Of a DNA stretch of 33,039 nt, positions 4,067 to 7,674 are shown piece by piece (position 1 is the stretch's first letter; each line of letters begins with the position of its first letter). The DNA is from Roseiflexus sp. (GTDB taxonomy: Bacteria; Chloroflexota; Chloroflexia; Chloroflexales; Roseiflexaceae). The stretch covers positions 1 through 33,039 of the forward strand of contig JANXAL010000067.1 of assembly GCA_025062325.1 (NCBI GenBank). Direction: 5' to 3'. The notes under the pieces were generated by a model. It was not told where the DNA came from and ran no database searches. It worked only from the letters and a program-made list of their open reading frames with translations. A program made the translations under genes and the position numbers.

Positions 4067-4975
4067 GTGGAGCCAGTTGCAGAAATAGCAGTCGATAATC
4101 GCCAGGGTGCGGCTCAAATCGCCGAACGCGCCGCTGATCTGATGATGCGTCGCGCAGAGGCGCTCGGATCGCTGCCACCGCAGGAGTTTCGCCGCAATCT
4201 GTGTGATTTCGGATGGTCGCTCATTCGCGCGCAACCGGTAATGGCGCCGCTGGTCAATTTGGTCAATCGTGTCCTGTGGGCTATTGAGGATCAACAGACG
4301 CGGCACGACCTGCTGCGTGCGGTTGCGGAAACAACCGAGGAGTTCAAACATCAGTTGCGTCAGCACGCGCTGCACGTTGCTGAGGGCGCGCTGGCGCTTA
4401 TTTCCGATGGGATTACGATTGTGACGCTGTCGTATAGCACAACGGTTCAGCACGCGTTGCGCCATGCGCAACGTGCAGGCCGCCGCTTCCGTGTCGTCTG
4501 CGGTGAGTCGCGCCCGATCCTCGAGGGGCGGCAGACGGCTGCCATCCTGGCGGACTATGGCATTCCTACCCAACTGGTTATCGATGCTGAGTTGCCAGCC
4601 CATATCGCGCACGCCCAACTAGTGCTTGTCGGCGCCGATATGTTGAGCACCTCCGGGCTGGTCAATAAGGTTGGCACCTATGGCATGGCGCTGGCGGCGC
4701 ATGTCAAAGGGGTGGCATTCTATGCATTGTGCGGCAGCGAGAAGTTCCTGCTTCCCGGCTTTCGTCAGTTGGAGCAGCTTGACCATCCACGCAGCGAGAT
4801 CTGGGCTGAAGCGCCCCAGAATGTGTATATCCGCAATCGCTACTTTGATCTGACGCCGCTCGAACTGCTTTCAGGAATCGTGACGGAGCGCGGCATTCTG
4901 CCAGTTGCAGCCGTCGAAGCCTGGCTGGCGTCGACCCGCCTGCATCCCGCGCTGGCGCGTGAGCCAGTTCATTAG
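4067..4975 (+). CDS. eIF-2B alpha/beta/delta-family protein (sugar-phosphate isomerase-like)
   Basis: A 302-residue protein with the C-terminal fold of the eIF-2B regulatory-subunit family, which also contains methylthioribose-1-phosphate isomerase and ribose-1,5-bisphosphate isomerase. Visible signatures are VTLSYSTTVQHAL, the VCGESRPILEGRQ segment, GADML, and NKVGTYGMALAAH near residues 190-220. The N-terminal part (about 1-90) is helical, as in the family. Bacteria have no eIF-2, so a translation-factor role is unlikely; a metabolic isomerase or related enzyme is the better guess, with the substrate unknown. The start is a GTG preceded by GAGGGG at 8 bases. It is flanked by its own candidate promoter and by the promoter of the next operon, so it is probably monocistronic. 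Confidence 0.85.
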   Translation: MEPVAEIAVDNRQGAAQIAERAADLMMRRAEALGSLPPQEFRRNLCDFGWSLIRAQPVMAPLVNLVNRVLWAIEDQQTRHDLLRAVAETTEEFKHQLRQHALHVAEGALALISDGITIVTLSYSTTVQHALRHAQRAGRRFRVVCGESRPILEGRQTAAILADYGIPTQLVIDAELPAHIAHAQLVLVGADMLSTSGLVNKVGTYGMALAAHVKGVAFYALCGSEKFLLPGFRQLEQLDHPRSEIWAEAPQNVYIRNRYFDLTPLELLSGIVTERGILPVAAVEAWLASTRLHPALAREPVH

Positions 4976-4989
4976 GGAGGAAATGCGTC

Positions 4990-5018
4990 TTGACGTAGAA
5001 CTTTTGTTCTGGTATCAT
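4990..5018 (+). promoter_or_regulatory. Near-consensus sigma70-type promoter of the envelope operon
   Basis: TTGACG (4990-4995), a 17-base spacer and TATCAT (5013-5018) give 5/6 matches at both boxes. Expected transcription start is near 5025, about 100 bases before the ATGs at 5122/5125. The ATG at 5017 lies inside the -10 box, so that start cannot be used from this promoter. Confidence 0.75.
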
Positions 5019-5121: not shown

Positions 5122-5652
5122 ATGATGGCAGTGACGAGCCGAACTATGCACACTGGTCGTCGGATCTGGAGTCGCAACCGGCAGGTTCCACGAGCGATGC
5201 ACGCGCTCCTGTACGGCGCAGCCCTGATATCGGGCGCTCTGGTCGTGTACGCGCTCGTGGGCGCGTTAATTGGACGCATTAATGTGCTGATCGATGACAT
5301 CCGCTATGGGTATCCGCGCACGATGCACGTGCAGGCGTTCGTTGGTCACGGCGAAGCAGCCGGTCAGCCGACGCACCTGATTGCCATGAATCTCGACCGG
5401 CAAGTAGTGGTGCTGGAATTGCCGGGTGGTGATCCCTCACGGGTACGTTCAATCACCGGCCCGTACCTGTTTGGCGCCGACGAACACCTGACACCGGTCA
5501 TCATTGGCCTCAGCGATGTCGACGGCGATGCATTGCTCGATCTGCTGCTCGATATTCGACGTGAGCGGATTGTCTATCTGAACCGAGACGGCGAATTCCG
5601 CCTGCCGACGCCTGCAGAACAGGCGCGGTTGATCGCGTCCGCGCTTCCATGA
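5122..5652 (+). CDS. Membrane-anchored protein with FG-GAP-like segment
   Basis: I do not recognise a named family for the whole protein. From the ATG at 5122 it has 176 residues: a basic cytoplasmic N-terminus, one membrane helix at about 27-50 (LISGALVVYALVGALIG), and an extracytoplasmic part of beta character. This contains a calcium-loop-like DVDGDALLD (residues 132-140) flanked by sequence of FG-GAP/VCBS style. The frame is open back to an ATG at 5017, but that codon sits in the promoter -10. AGGAGG at 5113-5118 sets the start at 5122 or 5125. Its stop overlaps the next gene's start (ATGA), so translation is probably coupled. It is first in an operon with a glucosaminidase-like and an M23-like protein, suggesting a scaffold or sensor in the cell envelope. 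Confidence 0.75.
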   Translation: MMAVTSRTMHTGRRIWSRNRQVPRAMHALLYGAALISGALVVYALVGALIGRINVLIDDIRYGYPRTMHVQAFVGHGEAAGQPTHLIAMNLDRQVVVLELPGGDPSRVRSITGPYLFGADEHLTPVIIGLSDVDGDALLDLLLDIRRERIVYLNRDGEFRLPTPAEQARLIASALP

Positions 5653-6725
5653 ACAATAGTGAGACAGAGAAGTATGCAGAGCGCCGCCGTGACCTGCGCT
5701 CCACACGGCAGACGGATTGTCGTCTGCCGGAACGTCCTTCCAAGCCGGTTGCTCAGTCGTACGACCCGTTCGACGATCCGTTGATCGTTGTCAAGAAGCG
5801 CCGATTCAATGAGCGTCGCACTCACGTTCAGGAACACCCACGTGTGACTCCTCAAGGACTGAGCCGAAGCATCGACGGCGTGAGCGCTCACGTTCGCGTT
5901 CGGGAACGCCTGCCTGCCATTTCGTCGTTTGCGGCGCCGCTTGCGGAAGAACCGCTCGTACCAGACACTCCCTTCGCTATCGACGATGGCGGGCGCGATA
6001 TGTTCCTCACGGAACTGGTCGTCGCATCTCCCGTCTGCAGTCCGGCACTGTTGCGCCGATCGAGCTGGCGCCAGGAGTTCCCCTGGCGGTTGCTCGCTAT
6101 ATGTATCGTCAGTCTCGTCGTTCTGGCGCTTGTTCGATTGTGGGATGGCGCCGAGTTGCGTATCTGCGCCGCGCCCGGCTGTACGGCCCGCAAACAGATC
6201 ATTCAGGCGCAGATGATTGCGCAGTCCTCTTCGTTGCCCGTGCCCGCCGGTCAGCATTCAGTGCTCGGGCCGCCAAGCCTTTCGGCGCAGCAGATCGACC
6301 GTATCCTTGCAGAGTGGCGGTCTCCGGCTGCGGGCACCGGCGCTACATGGGTGGAGCTCGGCATCCGGTATGGCATTGATCCTGCCTATGCCCTAGCGTT
6401 TTTCATTCACGAGTCGGGGGCTGGCACTGCACCAGGATGGGCAGGGCGGAAACCGGACGGCAGCACGACCCACAACATTGGCAATATCATTTGCGCTGGA
6501 TACCGCACGTGTTATGGCAGGTTTCGCGATTACGCAAGCTGGGAGGAGGGGATTGAAGACTGGTATCGCCTGATTGCTGTTGAGTACGTCCAGTGGCGCG
6601 GCATTCATACCGTTGAAGAGATTGTGCCAATCTACGCGCCAGCCGTCGAAAATAATGTTCCTCTCTACATTGATACGGTCAACCGTCTGGTTGCTGAGTG
6701 GCGTGCGTTGCAGGCGAGGCAATGA
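5649..6725 (+). CDS. Membrane-anchored glucosaminidase-like protein (GH73-type domain)
   Basis: A 358-residue protein with three parts. Residues 1-148 are a long charged, probably disordered cytoplasmic region rich in Arg, Pro and Asp. Residues about 149-172 form one membrane helix (LLAICIVSLVVLALVRLW). Residues about 215-355 are an extracytoplasmic domain of the endo-beta-N-acetylglucosaminidase/lysozyme-like superfamily. The expected catalytic acid is Glu255 in FFIHESGAG; NIGNI, the FRDYASWEEGIEDW stretch and a YIDTVNRLV ending are typical of peptidoglycan glucosaminidases. Substrate is inferred to be peptidoglycan. The start overlaps the upstream stop and its own stop overlaps the next start, both as ATGA. 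The long cytoplasmic tail is unusual for a hydrolase and could link wall cleavage to a cytoplasmic partner. Confidence 0.85.
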   Translation: MNNSETEKYAERRRDLRSTRQTDCRLPERPSKPVAQSYDPFDDPLIVVKKRRFNERRTHVQEHPRVTPQGLSRSIDGVSAHVRVRERLPAISSFAAPLAEEPLVPDTPFAIDDGGRDMFLTELVVASPVCSPALLRRSSWRQEFPWRLLAICIVSLVVLALVRLWDGAELRICAAPGCTARKQIIQAQMIAQSSSLPVPAGQHSVLGPPSLSAQQIDRILAEWRSPAAGTGATWVELGIRYGIDPAYALAFFIHESGAGTAPGWAGRKPDGSTTHNIGNIICAGYRTCYGRFRDYASWEEGIEDWYRLIAVEYVQWRGIHTVEEIVPIYAPAVENNVPLYIDTVNRLVAEWRALQARQ

Positions 6726-7336
6726 CTCTGAGTCGAGAGCGACTGGTTCTCCTCGTTCTGGCCTTGATCGGGATCGGCTTTCTCGTCCAACAGACCCGGC
6801 AACCTCCGGTGCAGCTGAGCTTTTGGCGAGGCGGGACGCTTACGACACAGAGCGCTGCGCAGCAGAGCCTGAGAGCTGCCTTCGTTCCACAACGCGCGAC
6901 TGAACGACCGTCTGGCAATCCGCTGCGGAACCCTCGCACGGTGATTACGCAGGGATACGGGGTCGGCTCGCATGCGCCCGCCAGCGTCTGGGGCGGCATT
7001 GATTTGGCAATTGACAGCAATGGCGATGGCAAAGCCGATCCGCAGGGCACCTGGTATGCGCCGGTGTACGCCACTCACGACGGTATCGCCCGCGTGCGAC
7101 CGAACACCTGGCCCGGCGGCAACTATCTTGCGATTGAGAACTTTCACTACAAAACAGCCTACGCCCACCTCGACTCTTATGCCGTTGTCGATGGTCAACC
7201 TGTCGTGCGCGGGCAGCTCATCGGTTATGTCGGCTCCACTGGCAAGTCGAGCGGTCCACACCTGCACTACGAGGTGTGGGAACGCGGCGTGAATCGCAAT
7301 CCGCTCAGTTTTGAGGCATTGCACCACGATTGGTAG
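6722..7336 (+). CDS. M23/LytM-domain protein, one zinc ligand missing
   Basis: A 204-residue protein with one N-terminal membrane helix (about 6-23) and an extracytoplasmic LytM domain (about 75-200). The start at 6722 overlaps the upstream stop as ATGA; an in-frame ATG at 6698 is less likely. Conserved features are Asp94, the YAHLDS motif, GYVGSTGKSSG, and His180 and His182 in GPHLHYE. The first zinc ligand of the HxGxD motif is replaced: the sequence reads W90-G-G-I-D94. Metallopeptidase activity is therefore doubtful. Degenerate LytM domains such as EnvC, NlpD and SpoIIQ act as activators or scaffolds. A calcium-loop-like DSNGDGKAD (98-106) is inserted after the motif. It closes the three-gene operon. 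Confidence 0.88.
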   Translation: MTLSRERLVLLVLALIGIGFLVQQTRQPPVQLSFWRGGTLTTQSAAQQSLRAAFVPQRATERPSGNPLRNPRTVITQGYGVGSHAPASVWGGIDLAIDSNGDGKADPQGTWYAPVYATHDGIARVRPNTWPGGNYLAIENFHYKTAYAHLDSYAVVDGQPVVRGQLIGYVGSTGKSSGPHLHYEVWERGVNRNPLSFEALHHDW

Positions 7337-7674
7337 GAGGCAGGTCTGTCGGCAAATGGTGGGGTAGGGATAGGTCTCAAACCTCTCGCAAGGGTGGATT
7401 TTTTAGCAATCCCTGCCGTCGCATTGCCCGTCTCAGGCAACAGGACGCCCCAATCCTCCTTTTCCCCTGGTGGGAGAAGGGGGCAGGGAGATGAGGGCAA
7501 ACAAGCGTCAAGATGCGGCAAACCCGCTTCGCACTCGAAAAAGCCTCCACTTGAGAGGAAGGGGGCAGTGGGGATGAGGGGCGAACAGGCGTCAGGATGC
7601 CGAAAACGCCCCTCGCACCTGAAAAACTCTCTCATTGGGAGCCCTCCCCTATCCCGCCGCCTGATCAAATTTCC
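7337..7674. repeat. Intergenic dispersed repeat, copy near 7.4-7.65 kb
   Basis: Non-coding spacer. Bases about 7380-7650 hold one nearly full and one partial copy of a repeat of roughly 190 bases. Shared landmarks are CCCCTGGTGGGAGAAGGGGG, a GGGGATGAGGG core, GATGCGGCAAACCCGCTTCG and AAAAAGCCTCCACTTGAGAG. The reverse complement of the 26.1-26.77 kb gap carries the same landmarks in the same order, so the two loci are inverted relative to each other. The family is purine/pyrimidine-skewed with short internal inverted repeats. No gene is seen here. Confidence 0.75.

Follow-up and report, generated by a model that had tools for sequence, protein, structure and literature searches.

A membrane operon of Roseiflexus sp. 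pairs a glucosaminidase with a LytM (M23) protein whose zinc-ligand set is incomplete, and the two proteins probably function together as a single unit of cell-wall remodelling in filamentous Chloroflexales. With middling confidence, we read the three genes of this operon as encoding a Chloroflexales-specific, membrane-anchored peptidoglycan-remodelling unit. The product of gene 2 would be a beta-N-acetylglucosaminidase of GH73 type, tethered on the outer side of the membrane and able to cut the wall, and that of gene 3 would be a LytM partner working beside it, in physical contact, on the same stretch of wall. Gene 3 would most likely position or gate gene 2, rather than serve as an ordinary M23 endopeptidase, and gene 1 may supply the complex with an FG-GAP-like adaptor anchored in the membrane. 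The unit might have a role in division or in the growth of filaments. To our knowledge, little has been established about wall remodelling in filamentous Chloroflexota, and our search of the open-access literature found no paper on this gene set, or on any LytM system, in this phylum.

Operon layout and its first two genes

The operon is on the forward strand of the window, a 33,039-nucleotide stretch of the Roseiflexus sp. genome. Its three genes occupy positions 5125-5652, 5649-6725 and 6722-7336, and overlap through ATGA sequences at 5649-5652 (genes 1 and 2) and 6722-6725 (genes 2 and 3). Hydropathy analysis gives a single hydrophobic segment in each protein. ORF positions and hydropathy thus agree with a preliminary description of this DNA, which proposed three single-pass membrane proteins with such overlaps. 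That description also placed the genes under a near-consensus promoter. A sigma-70-like candidate, TTGACG-17-TATCAT, is indeed present at 4990-5018 on the forward strand, with 10 of 12 matches and a TG before the -10 element, but it is a weak one, because chance alone would produce about 1.1 sites of such quality over the 3.3 kb scanned.

Upstream of the operon, at 4067-4975, lies a gene of the IF-2B family (similar to ribose-1,5-bisphosphate isomerase or MtnA), a homologue of which directly adjoins gene 2 in genus g8. Downstream, two diverged copies of a ~120-base sequence (..GGGGGCAG..GATGAGG..GAACA..GCGTCA.GATGC..) were spotted by eye at 7437-7640. This sequence is probably an interspersed repeat of the Roseiflexus sp. 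genome, and a similar stretch elsewhere was apparently read as an ORF (L286:5804-6286).

Gene 1 (5125-5652, forward strand) encodes a single-pass membrane protein of 175 amino acids with an FG-GAP-like beta domain. An alternative start is available at 5122, but the second ATG, at 5125, is the more likely one, because orthologues read I/V-MAVTS there and an AGGAGG sequence lies ~7 bases upstream of 5125. The FG-GAP_3 family matches 23 of 30 gene 1 homologues (best E-value 5.9e-7), but does not match the Roseiflexus protein itself. An AlphaFold2 model (mean pLDDT 83) shows a single long helix at the N terminus, plus a beta domain that best fits the propeller blades of integrin alpha (Z 9.7 over 90 residues, 2.6 A), of which only about two are present. 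A lysozyme-inhibitor function was considered and rejected, since the resemblance to PliI-Ah (Z 8.0; 1 of 30 homologues at E 0.17) is at noise level. A stand-alone paralogue of gene 1 is found elsewhere in the same genome (G000:C25:18399-18920, corresponding to L286:6394-6921), beside a PIG-L family deacetylase gene.

Gene 2 (5649-6725, forward strand) encodes a 358-residue, membrane-anchored protein of GH73 type, with an N-terminal tail of ~142 residues and a transmembrane segment at approximately residues 144-162. The Roseiflexus protein matches the Pfam Glucosaminidase family with an E-value of 1.9e-6 and 29.0 bits, which is 1.2 under the cut-off of 30.2, and PF01832 matches all 27 of the gene 2 homologues (best 1.4e-7). 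Structural comparisons, made for the fold of each half by itself, relied on an AlphaFold2 model covering the outer portion of a natural fusion of genes 2 and 3 (locus L105; mean pLDDT 85.9, pTM 0.61). Its glucosaminidase half resembles LytB of Streptococcus pneumoniae (Z 16.7 over 143 residues, 3.0 A) and autolysin E of S. aureus (Z 13.7). Glu255, within FFIHES (6411-6413, forward strand), is invariant in the 27 homologues and is presumed by analogy with GH73 enzymes to be catalytic; a pair of cysteines is invariant as well. The cytoplasmic tail was previously suggested to connect the enzyme to a division or filament-growth machinery. Although the long tail is real in the Roseiflexus protein, tail length ranges from ~10 to ~190 residues among homologues, with only ~10-30 in Herpetosiphon and family f2, and in view of this spread the idea of a conserved division tether was rejected.

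Distribution and fusion of the gene set

A DNA pattern for the distinctive LytM site, H-x-P-x3-W-G-[AG]-[IV]-D, occurs in every one of the 30 genomes sampled from the order, and a scan of 271 other genomes of Chloroflexota gave no match. Among 40 genomes drawn from the same genome, genus, family and order, homologues of gene 1, gene 2 and gene 3 are present in 39, 39 and 40, respectively, when paralogues are counted in. Reading of the flanking stretches revealed that the three genes are consecutive in 24 of these 40. Within 16 further genomes of the order, genes 2 and 3 are side by side or fused in every case, and gene 1 is visible alongside in 14. In total, the contiguous set, with genes 2 and 3 either separate or fused, is present in 38 of the 56 genomes examined from the order, and 40 of the 56 have genes 2 and 3 adjacent or fused. 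The contiguous set spans Roseiflexus-, Chloroflexus-, Oscillochloris- and Herpetosiphon-type lineages. Herpetosiphon aurantiacus, Candidatus Chloroploca, Candidatus Viridilinea, Oscillochloris, Chloroflexus and Kouleothrix are among the named records.

Genes 2 and 3 are not adjacent in the remaining 16 genomes: nine of genus g8, which have gene 2 only, two of genus g3, which have genes 1 and 2, one with gene 3 on a separate contig (G032), and four in which the set is incomplete or truncated by a contig end (G005, G016, G033 and G039). The preliminary description had proposed constant co-occurrence of the three genes as a check. Genomes with all three have them next to one another, with the exception of one metagenome-assembled genome (MAG), but g3 and g8 have retained gene 2 and lack the LytM gene of the operon. 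Because of these two genera, gene 2 can evidently do without gene 3.

Natural fusions of gene 2 to gene 3 were identified at six loci, namely L105, L109, L223/G240 and those of three g17 genomes (g17 being a genus). A single open frame that encodes the glucosaminidase together with the LytM domain is seen in L105 and L109, which are Chloroflexaceae MAGs, and in G124, G224, G256 and G240; gene 1 remains upstream of the fusion in G224 and G256. On a tree of LytM domains the fusions occupy at least two separate places, although some branches are weakly supported. These fusions are the strongest evidence for joint action of the two proteins. Since they arose at least twice, a functional partnership between gene 2 and gene 3 is likely, albeit not an obligate one, and the pairing first noticed in the Roseiflexus operon is borne out by both conserved adjacency and fusion.

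Two contigs from IMG/VR also carry related sequences: a glucosaminidase-LytM fusion and a LytM domain of the tryptophan type (L322:1155-2423 and L323:1542-2399), in what by appearance is host or prophage-flanking DNA. A phage origin of this LytM type was rejected, given that both contigs look like host DNA and that the seven other viral matches read have histidine.

The altered LytM site and its possible roles

Gene 3 (6722-7336, forward strand) encodes a membrane-anchored, divergent LytM protein of 204 amino acids that matches Peptidase_M23 (PF01551) with an E-value of 6.8e-20. The LytM half of the fusion model aligns with ShyA, DipM, Csd1-Csd2, EnvC and SpoIIQ at Z 15-16 over 120-130 residues. 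When scored with the SpoIIQ family model NCBIfam NF053738, the protein reaches only 21 bits, against a cut-off of 250.

We compared 64 distinct LytM sequences, among them a second, helix-turn-helix paralogue. Trp90 (6989-6991, forward strand, as are all codons given here) occupies the position of the first zinc-ligand histidine and is invariant in all 64. Also invariant are Asp94, at the zinc-ligand aspartate position (7001-7003), His149, at the catalytic histidine position within YAHL (7166-7168), and His180, the first histidine of the HxH motif His180-Leu-His182 (7259-7267). The preliminary description had reported Trp90 together with intact Asp94 and HLH, which is what we observe, and the catalytic His149 is intact too. 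Both members of the catalytic histidine pair (His149 and the first His of HxH) are thus kept throughout, whereas the zinc ligands HxxxD and HxH are incomplete in the family: the first is Trp in 64 of 64, and the third, at position 182, is Asp in 48 and His in 16. A tree built without the column for position 182 indicates that His and Asp were swapped there at least four times. Nearly all homologues also have a calcium-loop-like DxDxDGxxD insert in the LytM domain (Asp98-Asp106, 7013-7039), which is missing in L120 and L322. The fifth invariant residue is His84 (6971-6973; 64 of 64), where many canonical M23 proteins have the histidine of an HP sequence; it is a possible substitute ligand.

The alignment yielded no operon homologue with histidine at position 90. 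Conservation of Trp90 in all 64 sequences, and of the pattern in 30 of 30 sampled genomes of the order, rules out a private mutation or sequencing error. For comparison, Escherichia coli EnvC, a non-catalytic activator, likewise carries Trp in place of this ligand, but its equivalents of Asp94, His149, His180 and His182 are all gone; NlpD keeps some of these, and MepM is canonical. In view of the five invariant residues and of this comparison, the site in gene 3 has changed in one constant way and has not undergone general decay. The invariance of Asp94, His149 and His180, with only His or Asp at position 182, suggests a working metal or catalytic site, as opposed to a dead one.

The second paralogue with the tryptophan-type site (G000:C66 ~59904-60911, corresponding to L287:5905-6912) has an N-terminal Cro/C1-type helix-turn-helix. 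The HTH_31 match is weak in the Roseiflexus sp. genome and reaches 1.1e-9 in L113, and most homologues have a transmembrane segment. Across the order these proteins form a separate clade with a RodZ-like layout and a LytM head.

Other readings of gene 3 deserve consideration. Tentatively, it could still be a metal-dependent peptidase whose first zinc ligand has been relocated to His84, six residues upstream, with Asp94 and His/Asp182 completing the site, so that the operon would form a two-cut machine acting on glycan and peptide. Such relocation would fit the invariance of His84, Asp94, His149 and His180, and the restriction of position 182 to His and Asp, with at least four changes, is typical of zinc-ligand exchange. 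There is also a precedent in the crystal structure of Csd1 from Helicobacter pylori, in which zinc was bound by His164 in place of the normal ligand, which lies five residues further downstream (PMC5053510). However, Csd2 retains Asp and His ligands and binds no metal (PMC5053510). Moreover, His84 sits at a non-ligand histidine of many canonical M23 proteins (FGxRxHP), often at the same distance after GYG; given this shared spacing, it may be an old structural residue that is simply ancestral. In the structural model, the loop holding His84 (model residues 193-201 of the L105 fusion) has pLDDT below 50 and its geometry is unusable. Finally, no intermediate with both His84 and the canonical histidine was found with the pattern H-x-P-x3-H-x-G-[IV]-D in 301 genomes: matches occur in 74, but none of 32 loci read was M23-like, so a loosely defined pattern is simply matching by chance. 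The fuller proposal, which we regard as rather unlikely, is that gene 3 belongs to a subclass of M23 in which the metal site has been rebuilt (the invariant Trp, His84 as substitute, Asp94, and His or Asp as third ligand). Joined to the glucosaminidase within one complex or one polypeptide, it would form a machine that cuts two kinds of bond in the wall of Chloroflexales filaments.

Gene 3 might instead serve chiefly to bind peptidoglycan, keeping the glucosaminidase on its substrate while leaving catalysis unaffected. Natural fusions and the invariance of groove residues would fit such a module, but it does not predict the His/Asp exchange at position 182, and nothing specific sets it apart from a regulator; we consider it improbable. 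More improbable still is that the three genes are neighbours without shared function in an ordinary autolysin cluster. Genera g3 and g8, with gene 2 and no operon gene 3, are consistent with this idea, yet it leaves unexplained why the arrangement is kept order-wide and why repeated fusion into one polypeptide occurred. Our preferred reading remains that gene 3 positions or gates the glucosaminidase. The natural fusions provide a ready single-chain construct for testing LytM control over this enzyme, and the invariant Trp with the His/Asp exchange constitutes a natural experiment on the metal-site requirements of LytM domains.

Relationship to known systems

LytM proteins paired with wall hydrolases are a known theme, of which the glucosaminidase-LytM set of Chloroflexales is a new variant. 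On the glucosaminidase side, gene 2 has the fold and conserved Glu of the GH73 enzymes LytB and autolysin E. Unlike LytB, it is anchored by an N-terminal transmembrane segment and has no wall-binding repeats.

For the LytM side, gene 3 combines the LytM beta fold with incomplete zinc ligands, as do degenerate proteins of the EnvC, NlpD and DipM type. EnvC shares Trp at the lost first ligand, although gene 3 retains far more of the active site. Proteins of this type have coiled coils or LysM domains, and their targets are amidases or transglycosylases encoded elsewhere. DipM, whose LytM domain is inactive, stimulates the lytic transglycosylase SdpA and so activates a glycan-cleaving enzyme (PMC10336132). 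SpoIIQ is also a single-pass LytM protein with a degenerate site, and matches the model with Z 15.6, but its partner is SpoIIIAH in sporulation, and no such partner is present in the Chloroflexales operon.

In the Csd1-Csd2 pair of H. pylori, a LytM protein with a replaced first histidine is paired with another wall enzyme; Csd2 has Glu in its place and binds no metal, and Csd1 exhibits the ligand relocation described above (PMC5053510). The partner in that case is a second LytM protein, and no glucosaminidase is involved. In PrgK, a membrane-associated protein from the type 4 secretion system of pCF10, a degenerate LytM domain down-regulates a glycan-cleaving muramidase domain of the same chain (PMC11323569). 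PrgK differs in that its muramidase is followed by a CHAP domain and its LytM domain has lost both zinc motifs, whereas the Chloroflexales glycosidase is of GH73 type and most of the LytM site in gene 3 is kept.
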